From a virus: a DNA stretch of 36,459 bases. The stretch lies in IMG/VR virus record IMGVR_UViG_3300046007_002835, positions 1-36,459 of that record; one strand, written 5' to 3'. The translations under genes and the position numbers were made by a program. The notes under the pieces were generated by a model, which saw only the letters and a program-made list of their open reading frames with translations, had not been told where the DNA came from and ran no database searches. Of this stretch, positions 4,815 to 32,055 are shown piece after piece (the first letter of the stretch is position 1; each line of letters begins with the position of its first letter).

Positions 4815-7565
4815 CTATTCTTTTTCTTTATTTTTATTTTTATTATCGTATTTATTTTTGTTTTCTCTGGCTATTTGTAGCTGTTTATCTGCTATTTCTT
4901 TCTGTGCCATGATCTTTTCTCTCTCTATATCCATCTTCTGAGACTGTCTTAAGTTTTCATTAGATTGCTTTTCAATCTGTAAACTTGTTTGTTGCTCATA
5001 AGCTTCTGACTGTCTTATCTCTTTCATAGCATCTGCATAATCAGATATTTGATTTTTATTTACATCTGCCATAGAGCCATAACCTGCTGCTTTAATTTCA
5101 GCAACCAAGATATCTCTTTGTCTATCTTTTTCTTTTTCAGCAGCTTGTGCATCAAGTTTCATCTTCTCAGTTTGCTGCATTGACTGTAATTGCTGTTGTT
5201 GCATTTGCTGTTGTTGCTGTAGTTCTTGTTGTTTTTGTGATGATATTTTTTCTTCAGAAGCTTTAAGAACATTATTAAGCTCTGCAATTGAATCAGATTG
5301 TACTATTCTTCCAAGATCATAAATACTTGCTCCAGTAGTATTATTTTGAATAGCCATTTGTTTTAACTGTTCTAATACAGATCTATGATTAGCAGTTGTA
5401 GAACAATAAATATTTAAATCTCTCATTAAGAGATCTGTACCATTTACTTCAAAGTTTACTTTCTCATCTGCAGAAGTTGTATATGTAAGTCTTGCAGATG
5501 GTTTTGTAGAGTTATAGTATTGTGCCAAGTCAGTTCTCATTTGATGAACTCTTGGCATTAGATAATCACAGTGCTGAATAAAGAATACTTCTGTCTGTGC
5601 ATATGACGCTTGTAAAGCTTGTTCTACTCCGGTAGCTGTAGTTTGAGATAACTGTTGACCCATTCTTTGTGGGTTAACACCTATTACTTCATATGCTTGT
5701 TGCTTAAAGTGATTAGCTAAACTAATTCTTGACATTAATCTTTCTGTCTGAGAAAGATCTAGTTTTTGAAAATGCTGGAAGTTTAATGCATTCTCTGTAT
5801 TTGTAATAGATGTATCCAAAGGTAACATCTGGAAGTTCTTCATTGCAACATATGCTTTAGCATAGTTTCCTTTACCCCAGTCTTCTCCAAGAGAATGTTT
5901 AGGTAGAGTATTCTGATCAAGCATGATAATAGTACCTAGTTCATCTACTAAGATATCTGCAATCTGATTGTTTACAATGTTATATCCAATCTGATATGGC
6001 TTCATTAGATCTATAAGTGCAGTAGACTTAGTATTTCTATCTGAGAACACAGAACCTTCTACTGGTAACTTACAACCATATAAACTTTGATCTCCTTTAA
6101 ATTGGAACTTTAATGCTCCAATTTTATTTTTTTGTACACCAATATATATTGGAGAGAATCCTCCTGGATTATTCATACCCCAGAAAGAAGGAATGTTTGG
6201 ACCAATTTTAATACCACCCCAAACTTCATTAATCCAAATCCAATCTATATGCTCACCTTGTACAAGAGTATCTTTAGTTTTGTTTTTGAATAATCTATTA
6301 TCATATATTGGTTTGTCTGTTACTTCATAATCTTCTGTAACAATTTCATTTGCAACTTCTCCAGTTTCTGAAATCTTTGTAAGGTGACCAACTTTTCTTT
6401 GTGACTTCCAATATGCTGTAGTTACTCTTAATAGATATGCAGTACCTTGATCAAAGTAATCTTCACCTTGTGAAAGTATTTGATTTATAATATCGCCACC
6501 ATCTGTAATTGAGTTTGCAACTGCAGTTGTATACTGTCTATATGCAAGAGAAGGCATATTAACATTCCATTCATGAGATTTTGTGCCGTCATAATATGTA
6601 CCATCATTTTGATATCCACCAACTATATAACCACCAGATCTAATAGGATAGATTGCTTCTAATGCCTTTAATTGTTCTTCAGACATAATATATCCAAACT
6701 TGTCTATTACATCTGATACAGTAAACATATCTATCTTACCTACCCAGTTACCTTGTGATATATATCTTGCATCTGGAGATTTGTGATAGAATGTAACTAC
6801 TGGATTCCAGAGTTCTACCTCATAGTCATCTTCCATCATGTGGAAGTGCCAGAACTCTCTATCTGTAATAAGCATGTCTCTAAAGGCTCTTTCCTCTAGC
6901 TCATCCATTCTAAATCTTTCAACATCTACTTTATGCTGATGATATGCCCACTGCTCTATCATAGATCTATAATCTTTCTTAAAGAAAGATTCTATCTCTG
7001 GTAATGTTTTAAGATTTTCTGGTGATACTTGCTCTTGTACTTCAGGTGCTTGAGGATCTATTCCCTGCTCTATTAATGCAGTAACAATTTTTAACTGTGC
7101 ATCTGCTAAAAGAGTTTCTTCTACCATCTGTCTTTTTTCTTCTAGCATCTCATTATATGAGAACTCATCTACCGCTCTATATGTCAGTTTAGTTGATCTT
7201 TTAGCAAACTCTGCTACTAACACATTAATTACGTTTGGAATAATTGGATAGAACTTTAACTCAAGAGCTGTTGCTTCTTCTCTGGTTAATATTTCTACTA
7301 TATCTCTATATTCATTATTCTCCTCAATTATATAATCTGTTCTATCTATAATTCCCTTTGCAAGTTTATAGTTCTTCATTAGTCTTCTTGCATTTCTTCT
7401 GATTTGCTTAAGACCATTCCATTCTAACCAGTCTAAGTTCCAAGCTGCCCATTCTTCATCTTTATCTTTCTTAGATAAAAACTGTAGAGGCTGGGTAATA
7501 CTACCCATCCTATTTTGTTCTGTTTTAGCTCCTTTTTTTAACTGTAATGCGTTATATACCTGCAT
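4815..7565 (-). CDS. Portal protein
   Basis: 916 aa. It lies directly downstream of the large terminase gene (2-nt gap) and upstream of scaffold and capsid genes, the standard position for the portal. The first 770 residues are a mixed alpha/beta region rich in Tyr/Trp/Asn. Residues about 775-800 are a Gln-rich run and the remainder is a long Lys/Glu/Gln coiled coil ending NKNKNKEKE. The long helical C-terminus would form the portal barrel inside the head, as in podoviruses. The size fits a crAss-like portal. A 91-nt AT-rich gap follows before the scaffold gene and may hold a promoter. Confidence 0.88.
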   Translation of the reverse strand: MQVYNALQLKKGAKTEQNRMGSITQPLQFLSKKDKDEEWAAWNLDWLEWNGLKQIRRNARRLMKNYKLAKGIIDRTDYIIEENNEYRDIVEILTREEATALELKFYPIIPNVINVLVAEFAKRSTKLTYRAVDEFSYNEMLEEKRQMVEETLLADAQLKIVTALIEQGIDPQAPEVQEQVSPENLKTLPEIESFFKKDYRSMIEQWAYHQHKVDVERFRMDELEERAFRDMLITDREFWHFHMMEDDYEVELWNPVVTFYHKSPDARYISQGNWVGKIDMFTVSDVIDKFGYIMSEEQLKALEAIYPIRSGGYIVGGYQNDGTYYDGTKSHEWNVNMPSLAYRQYTTAVANSITDGGDIINQILSQGEDYFDQGTAYLLRVTTAYWKSQRKVGHLTKISETGEVANEIVTEDYEVTDKPIYDNRLFKNKTKDTLVQGEHIDWIWINEVWGGIKIGPNIPSFWGMNNPGGFSPIYIGVQKNKIGALKFQFKGDQSLYGCKLPVEGSVFSDRNTKSTALIDLMKPYQIGYNIVNNQIADILVDELGTIIMLDQNTLPKHSLGEDWGKGNYAKAYVAMKNFQMLPLDTSITNTENALNFQHFQKLDLSQTERLMSRISLANHFKQQAYEVIGVNPQRMGQQLSQTTATGVEQALQASYAQTEVFFIQHCDYLMPRVHQMRTDLAQYYNSTKPSARLTYTTSADEKVNFEVNGTDLLMRDLNIYCSTTANHRSVLEQLKQMAIQNNTTGASIYDLGRIVQSDSIAELNNVLKASEEKISSQKQQELQQQQQMQQQQLQSMQQTEKMKLDAQAAEKEKDRQRDILVAEIKAAGYGSMADVNKNQISDYADAMKEIRQSEAYEQQTSLQIEKQSNENLRQSQKMDIEREKIMAQKEIADKQLQIARENKNKYDNKNKNKEKE

Positions 7566-7567
7566 AG

Positions 7568-9769
7568 TTATTTTATATTTTTAAATGGTGATTTTTTAAA
7601 TACCGAACCATTTGTTAATCTACCGTTATTACCCATGTGCCTAAATGGACTACTATTTAATTTAAACAAATTTTCTGACTTTTGCAAGTTTTTAGCGGCA
7701 TCATCCATTATAGTTCTTCTTGCATATCCCCTATTAGATTGTTGCACTCTCATAAATGCAACTAATGCTGTAAATGCTACAAGTCTATCCACGTTCAGAC
7801 CATCTGTATATTCTTGCATCTCTTTGAGTAACATTGGATCTGGAATTCTTTCTATACCATATTTAGTCTTAACAATTGTACCATCCGGTTTTGTAACTGT
7901 ATCTAACTCCTCCTTACAATATTCAATAGCATAACTTAATAAGTGACCTTTAAATAAATTACCAGTATTTCTCCAACCATACTCTTGGTATACGTTAGTA
8001 TTAGCACCTAGATCCTTTAAAAACATGATCTGACTCTTTGGTACAAGATACCTTTGTTTTTTCTTAGATATCATGTATTGTATAAATAAAGAGATGTTAC
8101 TTTCTATTAGTGCCCAGGCATTATACCATTCTATTATTAGCTCTAACTTCTGATGTGTTTTATTTATATCATCATATCTACCACACCATGATGCAACAAT
8201 TTTATCTTGTTCTATATATGTTTCTGTTTCTACACCCGTATGTCTAGTTACTTGTATAGGGGCTTTCATTACAAATATAGAACACAATGAATCTGATGTA
8301 GTTGTCTTACCTTCTGATACAGGGTCAATAGAAGCATAATACTGTCCGAACTCTGGATCCTTAACCGGTCTTTCCCATACAACAAGAGTACCTGTTTTAT
8401 CTTCTAATTTTTTAGATACGGGAAACTGCATGATGGGCAGCTTATTAGTTTCCTTAACTTTTGGCTTTCCATTCTCATCATAGAATATATCTAAGAATTC
8501 ATATGCATATTCTTTCTCATCTATTCTTCTCTGCTGTGCTGCTACCAGATGTGTTGGGAATACAGAGACTGATCTATGTGCAAATGCTTCTTCAATATTT
8601 CTAGGGTGCTGAGATATTCTTAACTGGTAGTCTTCTGGAGATAAATCTTTCTTCCACTGTTCAAATTGATTCTCAAGTGCAACTAATGCTTCTTCTACAA
8701 GTGAATTACCATATTGATCTATATGTGGTGGCATAGACCATTGCTCAGGAATAAACAATCCTGAGAGACCTTCTGTTCCTTTGCTATCTATCAAGTTTGT
8801 TTCTACCGCATAGATATCTTTAGATGTAGGGTTTAGAATCATATCCTTAAGGGGATTACACTGAGATAAATCTCCTACTGATCCTGCAGCTATAAACATA
8901 CCAGTAGTAATTAAACCAGATCTCATTGCTGGCCTCATATACTCATATGTTTGATCCATCTTTGGTGCAATACCAGCCTCCTCATGGAAGAAGAATTTTA
9001 CTGGACCCCCTACACCATTTGTAGGATCTTTCTCAAATGACATGCCCTGCATTGTACCTTTGAGACCTACTTCATTTTTTCTATCTCCCTTTCTTACTTC
9101 AATCTTTTGCTGCCACATCATTACCTTATGTGGTGTCATTGGTCTATACCATGCGGTATGCTCATTTAAGAAAGCAGCATATTCATCTAAGAACTTCCAT
9201 GAACCTTTCTCATTTATATAGTCTTTAAGACTTGCTCCTATCTTTAAAGTAACCCCAGATTCAAACCAAATCTGATTTAATAGTTTGGCCATGTGAAAAT
9301 AAGAAGATGCTATCTGTCTTTTTTTTAGAATAGCTACATGCTTATAGTTGAGCTCTGCCAATAGTTCATAGAGGGCCATGTGATACTGGGCGTCACGTAT
9401 TTTAGCAAAGTCAAAAATTTGTTGTTCTTTATCAAATATTGGTAAGAAGTTAAGCCACATGTAGTAATCTCTTGTAAGGTACCAGGTGTTTTCTCCTGAC
9501 TTATAGATAACTCCTCTTCTACATCTAAGTTTTTGATCATCCCAGTAATTGATAAAATCTTTGGATTTAAAGGGTGCGTCACAATAGTATCCATTGTCTC
9601 TAAACTTTCTTGATTCTGTATTAAATAGTAAGCTAGTTTCATCAAATTTATATTTACCGGGTTCATCAAAAATATCTCTTACAAACTTAGAAAATTCCTC
9701 TCTTGAGGAAAAGTCTGTAATAGTCCAATTTCCATTATCATAGGTTGGTATATTTTCAAATATTTCCAT
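7568..9769 (-). CDS. terL: Terminase large subunit (ATPase-nuclease)
   Basis: 733 aa. It pumps DNA into the capsid and cuts it. The ATPase part shows a degenerate Walker A-like segment at residues 149-156 (KKRQIASS) and a Walker B with catalytic acids at 257-265 (VKFFFHEEA). The RNase H-like nuclease part shows motif I at 478-488 (YASIDPVSEGK, acid D482), motif II ESN at 556-558, and a late acid in LNVDRLVAF. Length and motif order match crAss-like TerL. The start overlaps the stop of the 171-aa gene as TAATG, so the two are coupled, and the portal follows after 2 nt. Confidence 0.93.
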   Translation of the reverse strand: MEIFENIPTYDNGNWTITDFSSREEFSKFVRDIFDEPGKYKFDETSLLFNTESRKFRDNGYYCDAPFKSKDFINYWDDQKLRCRRGVIYKSGENTWYLTRDYYMWLNFLPIFDKEQQIFDFAKIRDAQYHMALYELLAELNYKHVAILKKRQIASSYFHMAKLLNQIWFESGVTLKIGASLKDYINEKGSWKFLDEYAAFLNEHTAWYRPMTPHKVMMWQQKIEVRKGDRKNEVGLKGTMQGMSFEKDPTNGVGGPVKFFFHEEAGIAPKMDQTYEYMRPAMRSGLITTGMFIAAGSVGDLSQCNPLKDMILNPTSKDIYAVETNLIDSKGTEGLSGLFIPEQWSMPPHIDQYGNSLVEEALVALENQFEQWKKDLSPEDYQLRISQHPRNIEEAFAHRSVSVFPTHLVAAQQRRIDEKEYAYEFLDIFYDENGKPKVKETNKLPIMQFPVSKKLEDKTGTLVVWERPVKDPEFGQYYASIDPVSEGKTTTSDSLCSIFVMKAPIQVTRHTGVETETYIEQDKIVASWCGRYDDINKTHQKLELIIEWYNAWALIESNISLFIQYMISKKKQRYLVPKSQIMFLKDLGANTNVYQEYGWRNTGNLFKGHLLSYAIEYCKEELDTVTKPDGTIVKTKYGIERIPDPMLLKEMQEYTDGLNVDRLVAFTALVAFMRVQQSNRGYARRTIMDDAAKNLQKSENLFKLNSSPFRHMGNNGRLTNGSVFKKSPFKNIK

Positions 9770-25215: not shown

Positions 25216-25443
25216 ATGCTTAGAACTACTTACTTCCTAATAGGAATGTTATTCTCTTCCTTAGTATATGCTTTATTATTCTCTATAGAAAGAACAGAGG
25301 CAGAGACTCCGGTCAAAGATTTAGACCGGGAATATTATTTAGAAGTTACTGATGATAGTATCTTCTTAGAATCTAGACAAGGACAAATCTACCGTGGTAA
25401 ATACTCAGACTTAGACAGTCTTATTACCGTTGATAACTTGTAA
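25216..25443 (+). CDS. Single-pass membrane protein, 75 aa
   Basis: An N-terminal hydrophobic segment (residues about 6-23, FLIGMLFSSLVYALLFSI) is followed by an acidic, beta-like domain (EYYLEVTDDSIFLESRQGQIYRG). It may be an uncleaved signal anchor with a periplasmic domain. The stop codon touches the 5' helix of the large RNA that follows, so the gene and the RNA may share a transcript. No family recognised. Confidence 0.7.
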   Translation: MLRTTYFLIGMLFSSLVYALLFSIERTEAETPVKDLDREYYLEVTDDSIFLESRQGQIYRGKYSDLDSLITVDNL

Positions 25444-26342
25444 TTAATTGCAATATAGTTTCTAACAGCCAGTAATGGTCATCCGAAGGTAGAGCTATAA
25501 GTTGAGAAGGATATACTTATCTAGGTATTGCAACTAATTATTATATATACTCTCATCCAAGCAGGTAAGGAAATGCTACTAGTAGATTTCGTCAGTCTAC
25601 TACCGTAAGCTCTTAATGGAATGACTACATCCTCAAGGGTTGCAACCTTGTGAGAGTACAGATGGTGTAGAGATTGTAGTATAATGGACGCATTATATGA
25701 GGCTCTATATTCTATACAGGGGTCAGTATAGTCTTAAATTTTGTAACCTGAAGAGGGTTTTATAATACTAATCCTAGCAATGAGATACCCCATTGTTAGG
25801 TATTAATGCACCATTCTCACGTGGATATAAAGACTTCTTATCAGACATTGCCAATGCTTTGTTGTGCCTAACTATAGGTGTAAGATGTGAAACCACAATA
25901 ACTAGTAAAAAAATTAAATGCATTGGCCTGACGCAAACAGGACTAGTTATTCTCCCAAGGGTGAGCAGTTGTAATACTGATCTTATTGTGTAGCTCTTGT
26001 AGCTGTATAGACCGAGTGTACATTACAGTCTATAGTAATCCTGGATTGACAGGTACATCTTAAGTTAAACAGTAGGTATTACAACTGAGTGCAGAGGGGT
26101 ATTCAACTTATAGAAACTTTATTAATACTATCTGTCAGGCAGGGTGATACCCTTGAAATGTTCCTGACTAAATGGGTTTGGAATAACAGCTTACAAGTTG
26201 CCAAGCTCCGTTGCTAATGCCAACTAAAAGGATTAATCACCCAGCATAAAAGCACCTCTGTCACTGGTTACATACAGTTTATCCTTGGTTTTCCCAAAGG
26301 TGCATACACAAGCTTTGTAGTAAGGTTTGCTTGTGTTTTTTA
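25441..26342 (+). ncRNA. Giant structured non-coding RNA (about 900 nt; GOLLD/ROOL-like or new class)
   Basis: No convincing gene on either strand for about 950 nt. Helices read by eye: 25441-25455 with 25526-25540; 25549-25555 with 25651-25657; 25773-25782 with 25791-25800 (10 bp); 26006-26012 with 26028-26034; 26047-26052 with 26132-26137; 26252-26257 with 26298-26303. Two crossing pairings: 25850-25857/25920-25927 crosses 25898-25906/25942-25950, and 26188-26192/26203-26207 crosses 26196-26200/26221-26225. It ends in a perfect terminator. Size, phage origin and nearness to a tRNA recall GOLLD and ROOL RNAs, whose consensus I cannot check here. Confidence 0.75.
26306..26342 (+). terminator. 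Terminator of the giant RNA
   Basis: ACACAAGC (26306-26313) with GCTTGTGT (26329-26336), 15-nt loop, followed by TTTTTTATA. Marks the 3' end of the structured region. Confidence 0.93.
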
Positions 26343-26391
26343 TAAACTAATTAACCCATCATATGATTATTAACTATTTAAAATTAAACTT

Positions 26392-26730
26392 ATGAATAAA
26401 ACAGTTCCCTTTGGTATACACCACATTGCTGGTCATACCATAATTAAACTAAATATGAATCTTACTAGTGAAGATGCAGAAGCTATCAGAAATAAATTTG
26501 GATTTGATGTTACACGTATATACTCAAAGCCACAACTTTGTAGAATAGAAGGTGCGCTTAAATGTGAGCCAACTTCTTATAATAATTTAATGTTTGAATT
26601 CTTCCAAAAAGTTGAAGAATATAAAGTAAATGCCAAGATAGAAAAACTGGCAAACAAAAAAGCAGCTTTGCTAGATAGAGCAATTGGTGCTGATAATTTA
26701 TTAATTAATTTAAATGATTTACCCTTTTAA
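26392..26730 (+). CDS. 112-aa protein with SSB-tail-like C-terminus (NDLPF)
   Basis: The N-terminal half contains IHHIAGHTIIKLNMNLTSEDAEAI-type strand/helix pattern and a Cys pair (LCRIEGALKCEP). The C-terminal half is a Lys-rich helix ending ADNLLINLNDLPF. The last residues closely copy the Bacteroidetes SSB tip. This suggests docking on host or phage SSB-binding proteins (RecO, PriA, Pol III chi-type partners are the known SSB ligands). It follows the giant RNA and leads an operon with the lipoprotein at 26742. Confidence 0.75.
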   Translation: MNKTVPFGIHHIAGHTIIKLNMNLTSEDAEAIRNKFGFDVTRIYSKPQLCRIEGALKCEPTSYNNLMFEFFQKVEEYKVNAKIEKLANKKAALLDRAIGADNLLINLNDLPF

Positions 26731-27413: not shown

Positions 27414-27487
27414 AGTCCCATAGCTCAAGTGGATAGAGCAACTGCCTTCTAAGCAGTAGGTTACAGGTTCGACTCCTGTTGGGACTA
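27414..27487 (+). tRNA. tRNA-Arg (anticodon UCU)
   Basis: A complete cloverleaf is readable: acceptor AGTCCCA with TGGGACT, D-arm GCTC/GAGC, anticodon arm ACTGC-CTTCTAA-GCAGT with anticodon TCT, T-arm ACAGG-TTCGACT-CCTGT, discriminator A, and no encoded CCA. It reads AGA/AGG, the Arg codons favoured by this AT-rich phage. Confidence 0.97.
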
Positions 27488-27511
27488 CTTCTATTCACTA
27501 AAATTAATTAC

Positions 27512-29224: not shown

Positions 29225-29725
29225 ATGAAAATGTATAAAATGGAAAAGTTAAAACAGGAAATTAGAAGTTATCAGTTAAATGCAGGTAAAACCTACATGC
29301 AATATGAATCAGATGGATACTCTCAATATCAGAATTATCTGTACAAAAGAGCACTATATGGTTTAAATGCACTGACACAAGAAGAACTTGCTTCAATGTG
29401 TAGCAAGAAGAAACAAAGAGTGCTTAATGTGTATAAGCGTGCACAGAAAGTACTTAATGTATTCAAACAAAAGGTTACTATTCAGTATACTAATGAGATA
29501 TTCAAGACTCTATTTCCAAAGAGTCCTTGGACAGATGACATGCTTACATACGTGGAAACAGATGAGAAATTTGTAAACACTTTAACTTTTAAAGATTTAA
29601 ATATATCCAAAAAGGATATTATCACTATCTTTATGTCTGAGGGTATTCTTCCCAAAAACTTTTTAAGTTTAAAAGAAGCACCAGTAACATTACCAAGATT
29701 AAAGAATGAAGTTAAAAGTATGTGA
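29225..29725 (+). CDS. Hypothetical 166-aa basic protein
   Basis: Starts MKMYKMEKLKQEIRSYQLNA, mostly helical and basic, with a Tyr-rich segment (YSQYQNYLYKRALYG) and several Lys-rich helices (KKKQRVLNVYKRAQKVLNVF). It overlaps the NinG-like gene by 20 nt, so both are translated together. The composition suggests nucleic-acid binding or a recombination accessory. No known family. Confidence 0.75.
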   Translation: MKMYKMEKLKQEIRSYQLNAGKTYMQYESDGYSQYQNYLYKRALYGLNALTQEELASMCSKKKQRVLNVYKRAQKVLNVFKQKVTIQYTNEIFKTLFPKSPWTDDMLTYVETDEKFVNTLTFKDLNISKKDIITIFMSEGILPKNFLSLKEAPVTLPRLKNEVKSM

Positions 29726-30110
29726 TGGCTGTCAAAAAGAGACAGTAATATGGAAGAACCATGGGGGATTTAAATACTGTAAATATTGTTGGAGTTGCCA
29801 AAAAGCCATTGATAGTAACAGTGTACAGAAACCAACTGACTATAAAATTCCCCAGGTCTCTTCTAAGCGGAAGAAAAAAGATCTAGAATACTCAAAACTA
29901 AGAAACAGGTTTCTTACAGATTTCAGTCTATGTCAGATTGCAGTAAAAGGTTGTAGTGTTAATGCTACAGATGTACACCATACATATGCTGGTGCTAACA
30001 GAGATGCCTTTTATTTAGTACAAAGCACTTGGCTTGCAGTCTGTAGAAACTGTCATGATTGGATTCATGCTCATCCAAAAGAATCAAGAGCATTTGGCTA
30101 CTTAAAATGA
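29706..30110 (+). CDS. NinG/Rap-like HNH nuclease with zinc ribbon
   Basis: 134 aa. The N-terminus has a zinc-ribbon with C6, C9, C25, C28 (and C31). After a basic linker (KRKKKDL) the C-terminal half is HNH-type: C76, C83, VHH (H91, H92), then AVCRNCHDWIHAH (C113, C116, H117, H121, H123). NinG/Rap proteins are phage recombination nucleases acting on branched DNA; crAss-like phages often carry one. It could instead be a free-standing HNH homing enzyme, but the N-terminal ribbon fits NinG better. Confidence 0.85.
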   Translation: MKLKVCDGCQKETVIWKNHGGFKYCKYCWSCQKAIDSNSVQKPTDYKIPQVSSKRKKKDLEYSKLRNRFLTDFSLCQIAVKGCSVNATDVHHTYAGANRDAFYLVQSTWLAVCRNCHDWIHAHPKESRAFGYLK

Positions 30111-31206: not shown

Positions 31207-31281
31207 CTAACAGTCCAGGTGCTCACATTTATTAGGGACTAGATTCTTGTAAAATTAATTTATTATTTGTATCTTTATAAT

Positions 31282-32055
31282 ATGAATATAGATAAAGGCT
31301 TTGGATACAAAAAATCTGGTATTTATTGTATCAAAAACATTACAAGTAATAAATTTTATATTGGAAGCAGCACTCATATTTATTATAGACTTAGGAGGCA
31401 TAAATCTGACTTAATAAGACAGAAGCATGCAAATCCTATTCTGCAAAATGCATATAATAAATATGGTGCTGATTCTTTTATAGTTTCAATAATTGAAGAA
31501 TGTTCTGAAGATACAATTCTACAAAGAGAACAGTATTATATTAATACATTAATCCCAGCTTATAATATTACAAAAGAAGTAATTAATAATAGGCCTTCTC
31601 CTGAGTCTAGATTAAAAATATCTAATACCATGAAAGCTAAGGCTAAAGCAGGTATTAGAGTAAATTGCATGAATGAAGCTAAGAGAAAACAAATTGACTT
31701 ATATGACTTTAATTGTAATTTTATAAAAAGATTTGAATCTTATAATGATGCTGGTAGATACCTTAAGGAATTGTATCCAAAATTAACTCCAGATAGTATT
31801 TCTAGTATTATTAAAAGTCGTAGAGGAAGATATAAGGATTACTATCTTATAAAACCTGGATTTAATTGTGACAATAGTGATCCAAGAAATGAGTTTGTAA
31901 ATATTAGACTAACCAATACTATTACAAATACAGAACAAACATTTAAGAGTTTAAAATCTATTATAGAATACCTAGGATGCTCAAAGTCTGCAATCTACCA
32001 ATCAATTAGAAAGAACAGACTTTTGTTGAAAAAATATAAAATTAAAAAACTATGA
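31282..32055 (+). CDS. GIY-YIG homing endonuclease
   Basis: 257 aa from the ATG at 31282; a longer frame uses an upstream TTG. The catalytic domain has SGIYCIKNI (GIY at 13-15), KFYIGSS (YIG at 26-28), and a helix with R34/H41-type residues. Then a NUMOD3-like SPESRLKISNTMKAK and a NUMOD1/HTH-like DNA-binding region (IDLYDFNCNFIKRFESYNDA, later SLKSIIEYLGCSKSAIYQSI). It is a free-standing homing gene. Its stop overlaps the helicase ATG (ATGA). See the 30875 remnant for insertion context. Confidence 0.92.
   Translation: MNIDKGFGYKKSGIYCIKNITSNKFYIGSSTHIYYRLRRHKSDLIRQKHANPILQNAYNKYGADSFIVSIIEECSEDTILQREQYYINTLIPAYNITKEVINNRPSPESRLKISNTMKAKAKAGIRVNCMNEAKRKQIDLYDFNCNFIKRFESYNDAGRYLKELYPKLTPDSISSIIKSRRGRYKDYYLIKPGFNCDNSDPRNEFVNIRLTNTITNTEQTFKSLKSIIEYLGCSKSAIYQSIRKNRLLLKKYKIKKL

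Follow-up and report, generated by a model that had tools for sequence, protein, structure and literature searches.

The gene-free stretch of about 900 bases in the virus record IMGVR_UViG_3300046007_002835 is a chain of separate small structured RNA modules and not one giant RNA. One of these modules, module II, resembles the twister ribozyme and appears to be a form of it that has been overlooked and that is found again in many related phages. Judged from its sequence and by analogy to twister, module II is probably a self-cleaving ribozyme with an extra P4 domain, which would cut the RNA between U25804 and A25805. The window, meaning the whole stretch of DNA that was analyzed, is a linear IMG/VR fragment of 36,459 bases.

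Modules in a gene-free region of a crAss-like phage

The portal, large terminase, and head proteins of the record match PHROG families. The best named match of the portal is Leptolyngbya phage Lbo-JY46 (34%), which is filed only as Caudoviricetes, followed by csAssE-Sib and named Crassvirales such as cr108_1 (23%). The record is a crAss-like virus of bacteria. The structural genes are encoded on the minus strand to ~22.9 kb and the small genes after that on the plus strand, where the RNA-module region is located between a 75-aa ORF that ends at 25443 and a 112-aa ORF that starts at 26392. The preliminary description of this stretch as gene-free is accurate except for a 66-aa TTG-start frame at 25793-25993, the sole listed ORF of at least 50 aa between those two. 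A coding-region reading was rejected, since no sign of coding appears in the listed ORFs or at the 3' ends of module II. Family scans of 10 flanking small proteins returned one HNH-endonuclease-like match in PHROGs and none in Pfam. Homing-endonuclease-like genes (HNH; GIY-YIG) appear downstream of the RNA region at 29706-30110 and 31267-32055 of the window. The features of the region are as follows.

25444..26345, plus strand: gene-free RNA-module region, the feature first described; mosaic conservation in relatives, absent from loci L003 and L005
25448..25533, plus strand: candidate module 0, closed by TTGCAATA/TATTGCAA, recognized in the sequence
25548..25658, plus strand: module I (R2 match at 25546-25660, 71.5 bits; alignment A2; covariation)
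25548-25555/25651-25658, plus strand: P1 of module I, 8 pairs
25557-25565, plus strand: mini-hairpin CC(AAGCA)GG of module I, followed by a hypervariable stem
25634-25638/25646-25650, plus strand: P3 of module I, with loop GUUGCAA at 25639-25645
25662..25800, plus strand: middle module, whose last element, the 10-pair hairpin 25773-25800, immediately precedes the predicted cleavage site
25799..26103, plus strand: module II, long form, twister-like ribozyme candidate (R1 match and long-form domain)
26127..26341 (segment 26127-26345), plus strand: 3' module, ending in the inverted repeat 26306-26313/26329-26336 and T5
27414..27488, plus strand: tRNA-Arg (TCT), ~1.1 kb downstream of the RNA region

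The computed fold of the whole stretch is -237.8 kcal/mol, against -224.3 ± 6.8 kcal/mol for 20 shuffled sequences (z -1.98, 0/20). The stretch is modestly more structured than chance. The 10-bp hairpin singled out at 25773-25800 was confirmed, with 10 pairs including one G-U (z -5.54, 0/200 shuffles), as was the tRNA-Arg gene placed at 27414. This tRNA is the only match in the window to Rfam 15 at gathering score; up to an E of 10, only MicF, SSRC41, and RefA9 appear, all far under their cut-offs. The suggested families GOLLD, ROOL, OLE, and HEARO have no match at gathering score or up to an E of 10 and are thus excluded as far as their models reach. The hatchet model RF02678 has no match in the window, modules I and II included. 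A search of GenBank phage DNA with the whole region provided short matches only (2-3% of the query, E ≥0.1), the best of them outside the RNA stretch. The promoter scan, with 7 found and 7.1 expected, carries no information.

A set of 97 related loci was gathered via two neighboring proteins. In these relatives the RNA region appears mostly as short aligned blocks in constant order with changing spacers, and the complete architecture is seen in none of the 97 loci, some of which are on contigs that end early. Modules are lost, gained, or duplicated (L008/L009; L020/L029), and the 3' module adjoins module I directly in L223. The 5' part of module I is missing from L008 and L009, where module II is shorter. 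The break in module I (8226-8330 in both loci) falls inside TATTGCAAC, which is common to the upstream module, and the loss looks like a deletion between short repeats. The close relative L003, with a neighbor protein that is 97% identical, lacks the array altogether and has at 7460-7600 a short one-hairpin junction of the same flanking genes. A similar short one-hairpin join is found in L005 at 8210-8330 (versus 25430-26400 of the window). The absence of the array from near relatives identifies it as a dispensable cassette, gained or lost, and not essential; L003 and L005 provide a natural empty-site comparison with the window.

These comparisons bear on the proposal that the 900 nt constitute one giant ornate RNA of the GOLLD/ROOL kind, as a new family and perhaps multimeric. 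Its size, phage origin, and stable fold are consistent with such an RNA, as are the tRNA-Arg gene ~1.1 kb downstream and a likely 3' terminator, and the window shares with GOLLD and ROOL the presence of structured phage RNA near a tRNA gene. In passages of PMC12286853, GOLLD and ROOL are each described as one large RNA with a conserved 3' region, located in phages near tRNA genes. In contrast, the window matches neither model and contains small modular units. In the homologues, the nested single molecule of the preliminary description is replaced by short, independent modules that are variably spaced and in places lost or repeated; the conserved units measure ~60-390 nt as parsed, and the predicted cut in module II would halve the stretch. 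With the models unmatched and the modules so rearranged, a giant RNA is very improbable, and the chain of separate modules is the reading followed here.

Where candidate module 0 is present, for example in L002, L008, L009, and L011, its sequence is 98-100% identical, and this near-identity makes covariation uninformative for it. Members of the module I family contain the mini-hairpin CC(AAGCA or AAUUGCA)GG and the hairpin CAAGG(RUUGCAA)CCUUG, whose loop is complementary to that of the mini-hairpin, and the P3 loop may kiss the mini-hairpin loop. From 57 copies of module I, 33 of 47 references were used for alignment A2. Double changes appear at 6 pairs, including one in the pairing between the two loops; shuffles give 0.4 and slid controls no more than 2. 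The high conservation of module I leaves this covariation thin, though consistent. The mini-hairpin has no double change within A2; outside A2, L222 and L116 read CU..AG. Rfam scans of the window and 20 array loci gave no convincing family on module I.

The middle module is 95.5% identical in L303, 89% in L222, L229, and L325, and 80% in L139, and it adjoins module II on the 5' side in L303 and L139. Among 4 sequences, 3 pairs have double changes with a covariation term of 0, and the 3' hairpin is broken in L139. For the 3' module, a full homologue was found at one of 330 loci (L223, 9176-9399, minus strand; 74.7% over 225 nt, E 5e-33), directly after module I, so two full copies are in hand including that of the window; no match was found among GenBank phages. 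Between these two copies, double changes appear at 5 of 39 pairs, 3 of them in the terminal hairpin.

The stretch had been reported to end in a textbook terminator. The inverted repeat of the 3' module has 8 pairs and a 15-nt loop followed by T5, and is omitted by a terminator scan that allows loops of 3-8. The fold of 26296-26345 is weak (z -1.25), with 18 of 200 shuffles as good. In the terminal stem of L223, 3 of 7 aligned pairs are changed on both sides and a T run follows. Because the stem is kept there with other letters together with the T run, the repeat is likely a terminator, if not a textbook one.

Structure and covariation of module II

The structure and conservation of module II were established from 123 parsed short forms and from alignment A1, for which 40 of 61 references drawn from these copies were used. 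The layout is P1, UAA, P2, a P4 hairpin with loop UUCCCAAGG, P2', GAGGG, and P1'. In the short forms the 5' half consists of a variable P1, UAA, UGCAC, a short linker, and a five-pair hairpin with the same loop. The 3' half reads CAGUUG..., an insert, ...CAACUG, A, GUGCA, and GAGGG, then mostly A or G, and the insert between CAGUUG and CAACUG is 4-335 nt as parsed. Long-form copies are outside A1, since parsing demanded a loop close to the head. The elements of the window copy are listed below.

25799..25803, plus strand: 5' strand of P1, pairing with 26099-26103; three of five pairs are G-U (family-wide P1 tests)
25804..25806, plus strand: UAA of loop L1, with predicted cleavage U25804^A25805 (UAA in 113 of 119 copies; analogy to the U-A of twister in passages of PMC6154101 and PMC5408937)
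25807..25811, plus strand: 5' strand of P2, UGCAC, pairing with GUGCA 26089-26093 (strand changes among 123 copies)
25816..25820, plus strand: 5' strand of P4, CUCAC, pairing with GUGAG 25961-25965 (all five P4 pairs covary)
25821..25952, plus strand: extra domain inside P4, GUGGAUAUAAAGACUUCUUA ... UAAGAUGUGAAACCAC, then a variable hairpin (common to other long-form copies)
25953..25960, plus strand: loop L4, UCCCAAGG, whose CCC could pair (T1) with GGG 26096-26098 (invariant in A1)
25966..26087, plus strand: P5-like hypervariable stem, CAGUUGUAAUAC 25966-25977 / GUAUUACAACUG 26076-26087 (six of eleven P5 pairs covary)
26094..26098, plus strand: GAGGG of loop L1 (each base conserved in 117-118 of 119 copies)

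Base-pair covariation among homologues is present in module II as well as in module I. In the 40 natural copies of A1, standard pairs account for 91.6% and double changes appear at 17 of 29 pairs. The covariation score is 0.331, against 0.146 ± 0.009 for shuffled alignments (0/500) and ≤0.102 for slid partners. All five pairs of P1 and all five of P4 have double changes, with P1 paired in only 66% of cells. When the string before UAA was compared with that after GAGGG in 119 copies, a value of 7.07 was obtained, versus 5.93 ± 0.20 after re-pairing (0/200). The P4 hairpin occurs in 22 strand combinations, and the 13 that are fully complementary account for 113 of the 123 copies. In P2, UGCAC/GUGCA is replaced by UGUAC/GUACA in 7 of the 123 copies and by UGUAC/GUGCA, which contains a G-U pair, in 6. 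The CCC of L4 and the GGG of L1 can pair in 99.2% of A1 cells, in columns without variation. Model R1, built from A1, finds the window copy at 25936-26106 with 38.2 bits and an E of 4.1e-8; the window is outside the training set. The module II consensus has just two matches among GenBank phages, at an E of 6.

The long form is found in the window and about twenty other copies. These contain a further P4-loop domain, GUGGAUAURAAGACUUCUUA ... UAAGAUGUGAAACCAC, then a variable hairpin and UCCCAAGG. The domain that spans 25821-25952 in the window also appears in L100, L108, L112, L114, L117, L125, L130, L144, L164, L171, L176, L199, L207, L210, L215, L234, L273, L285, and L308. In the survey for this form, 50 of 74 rows without the second motif were set aside as chance, and among the other 24, L172 and L292 look like chance too. 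The inserted domain is conserved; GUGG/CCAC reads GUAG/CUAC in L117, L176, and L308, and the strands of the hairpin also change in concert.

At paired columns G-U outnumbers A-C by 43 to 16 (p 0.0006, with cells that are not independent), which indicates that the RNA is read in this direction. The next ORF has the same orientation as module II in 116 of 131 cases, and in 45 of 133 a same-strand ORF follows the module at no more than 80 nt. The 3' ends of module II give no sign of a protein frame: 125 of 133 are outside ORFs of at least 60 aa, with the other 8 inside. The 45 nt before the predicted cut have a mean fold z of -1.29 (n 104), versus -0.56 at 400 nt upstream and -0.19 just downstream.

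The same data bear on another possibility, namely that the modules spread between phage genes as DNA elements, whether MITE-like, IS200/IS605-like, or in the form of recombination hairpins. Mosaic insertions and losses would be expected of such elements, and copies do precede different genes, with several per locus in some (four R1 matches in L285). The excess of G-U over A-C and the orientation that follows the genes argue instead for a transcribed RNA. In addition, constant ends enclose interiors of differing sequence, and most records have 1-2 copies. A DNA element is accordingly a highly improbable explanation of the modules.

Comparison of module II with the twister ribozyme

The Rfam twister-P1 consensus reads ccuu-UAA-cgCc-GC-(P3)-cCG-GUCCCAAGCC-CGg-gUAAA-gGcg-GAGGG-aagg. 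Module II shares with twister type P1 (RF03160) the helix order P1-P2-P4 with the termini at P1, the L1 strands UAA and GAGGG, the L4 core UCCCAAG, and P2' and P1'. T1 is possible (CCC/GGG), a U-A is present at the predicted cut, and the phage and ribozyme neighborhood is the same. Passages of PMC6154101 and PMC5408937 place the most conserved twister bases in L1 and L4 and describe a P2 of four pairs followed by an A-G pair, a T1 of three Watson-Crick pairs between L4 and L1, a dispensable P1, and cleavage at U-A with catalysis by the A after the cut and a G. T2 is described in part of PMC5408937 as arising from a conserved GC in L2. A P2 of four pairs is possible in module II if its fifth C serves T2. 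The first G of GAGGG is presumably the catalytic G of twister.

Module II differs from twister type P1 in several respects. A hypervariable stem is located 3' of P4, in the P5 position, instead of P3; the conserved GC of L2 is replaced by CC, opposite GG in L4, and the UAAA is absent. L4 contains one extra U, the long form has a further P4 domain, and the Rfam model is not matched. The CC after P2 could form T2 with the GG of L4. Rfam twister models report no module II at an E of 2 in 20 array loci (19 with an R1 match) and none up to an E of 10 in a 111-nt stretch with a short copy. At an E of 1 they match one of 50 records, and what they match there is a separate twister. The Twister-P1 model also provides sub-cut-off matches in 2 of 14 control genomes. 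Given a shared layout without the GC and UAAA, and silent Rfam models, module II is called twister-like and is not filed under the Rfam family. P5-bearing twisters are rare, at 1% in a passage of PMC6154101. A non-circular twister permutation is not claimed, since an optional P5 is the better description of the stem 3' of P4; PMC10085705 mentions, in one section, a search for missing twister permutations with no promising candidates. Model R1, for which module II was the sole training material, places the L207 twister in register over P1-UAA-P2-GAxGG-P1', a weak cross-match (8.2 bits, E 0.0081 for 91 nt) that is the best of four matches.

These features suggest the following mechanism. The region, read on the plus strand of a crAss-like phage, is a chain of small structured RNA modules. 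P1 and P2 of module II would hold the internal loop UAA//GAGGG, the P4 loop UUCCCAAGG would fold back so that its CCC pairs with the GGG of GAGGG (T1), and its GG would perhaps pair with the CC after P2 (T2). The U-A bond of UAA would then be cut, the first G of GAGGG acting as the base and the A that follows the cut as the acid. In the window P4 contains the extra domain, and the hypervariable stem takes the place of the 3' part of loop L2. The upstream product would be an RNA that contains module I and has the hairpin 25773-25800 near its 3' end, and the downstream product would have the folded ribozyme at its 5' end and the terminator near 26341 at its 3' end. The likely role would be to divide the transcript into units whose ends are protected.

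The main alternative to cleavage is that the modules are structured but non-cleaving (protein-binding, exonuclease-blocking, or sRNA bodies) and that the twister likeness of module II is convergence or an inactive relic. The twister L2 is altered, the Rfam twister models are silent, and the comparably conserved module I resembles no ribozyme that could be named in the analysis. Against this, ~15 specified bases (UAA, UCCCAAG, and GAGGG) occupy twister positions in the same helix order, the two presumed catalytic bases are kept in nearly all copies when a relic would lose them, and known ribozymes are present in some of the same arrays. Non-cleaving RNAs are for these reasons considered unlikely, and a twister-like ribozyme is the preferred assignment.

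If module II is such a ribozyme, the known limits of the twister fold would be widened. The functions of self-cleaving ribozymes in bacteria and phages are not settled, and a passage of a 2016 review (PMC5408937) describes those of hammerhead and twister as largely speculative. The module II family occurs in fixed order with another conserved module, and in some cases with hatchet, which provides a defined place to test phage ribozyme roles, and near relatives with and without the array offer a natural comparison for function. A broader proposal, doubtful at present, is that crAss-like phages contain "ribozyme islands" in which hypervariable RNAs would be cut apart by a so far unseen P5-only twister (with the P4-domain long form), hatchet, and ordinary twister, and in which module I would itself belong to a new class of RNA active in catalysis or processing. 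A diversified payload would then reside in the hypervariable stems, processed and protected by constant ends. Among the open-access papers listed in searches on these ribozymes and phages, no title or abstract opening describes such arrays.

Distribution and neighbors of the modules

Copies of modules I and II occur in many contigs of crAss-like phages; their ends are constant and their interiors hypervariable. The module II family comprises many dozens of copies at least, is missed by Rfam models, and is found mostly in one phage group. When IMG/VR was scanned for exact matches to the two best conserved ends, at least 119 stretches were obtained, and the equivalent scan of GTDB species genomes gave 3, all in MAG contigs. 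These contigs (L306, L307, and L308, labeled Bacteroidales, Rickettsiella, and Neisseriaceae, respectively) carry the module II end, and R1 at an E of 0.1 or better matches two of the three MAG genomes; they are perhaps phage contigs binned with bacteria. Among 31 loci brought by the 75-aa neighbor alone, some of which are copies of one phage, module II is present in 20 and module I in 14.

A set of 50 records was chosen from the loci in hand. Module II was detected by R1 in at least 44 of them, mostly as 1-2 copies, a lower bound because R1 misses some long forms and only part of the candidates was scored in many records. The whole-record search misses the long form of G048, although that of L164 matches in the locus search, and some additional R1 rows are partial antisense P5 matches. 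In an earlier set of 30 records, module II was found in 23. Module I is present in 16 of the 50 records. In the 13 that contain both modules, a module I copy precedes module II on the same strand at a distance of up to ~1 kb; a small number of additional module I copies are found elsewhere. R1 matches none of the three phages Lbo-JY46, csAssE-Sib, and cr108_1. The same portal family is encoded in 42 of the 50 records; the other 8 are mostly short, but G013 is 113 kb. The otherwise open portal frame contains one in-frame stop in G019 (TAG), G020 (TAA), and G025 (TAA), from recoding, an intron, or an assembly error.

Known ribozymes are found next to module II in some arrays. Hatchet (RF02678), a separate element, is above cut-off in 5 of the 50 records. 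In four of these it precedes the closest same-strand module II by 720-958 nt; the fifth has no module II shown, and its contig ends 318 nt later. The twister of L207 (49.4 bits against a cut-off of 67.2, E 2.2e-9) is directly 5' of one of two module II copies. Proximity of self-cleaving ribozymes to one another is noted as a known trend in a passage of PMC10085705, and ten other motifs are mentioned there that gave no cleavage when tested. In L199, tRNA-Leu genes flank module II, and a DUF805b RNA motif (RF02914) appears in L140 at 885-916 with 37.3 bits against a cut-off of 35.6. Recurrent elements CCTGAGCATG..AACTGCTC and CTATCCAGTAAG..CTGG were observed in L011, L012, L014, and L071 (before module II) and in L085 and L014, together with recurrent k-mers such as TATCAAAGTTTTAGGTGTAAAACACA and AAGAATACTTCAGCACAA, which indicates that the arrays contain more than two module types.
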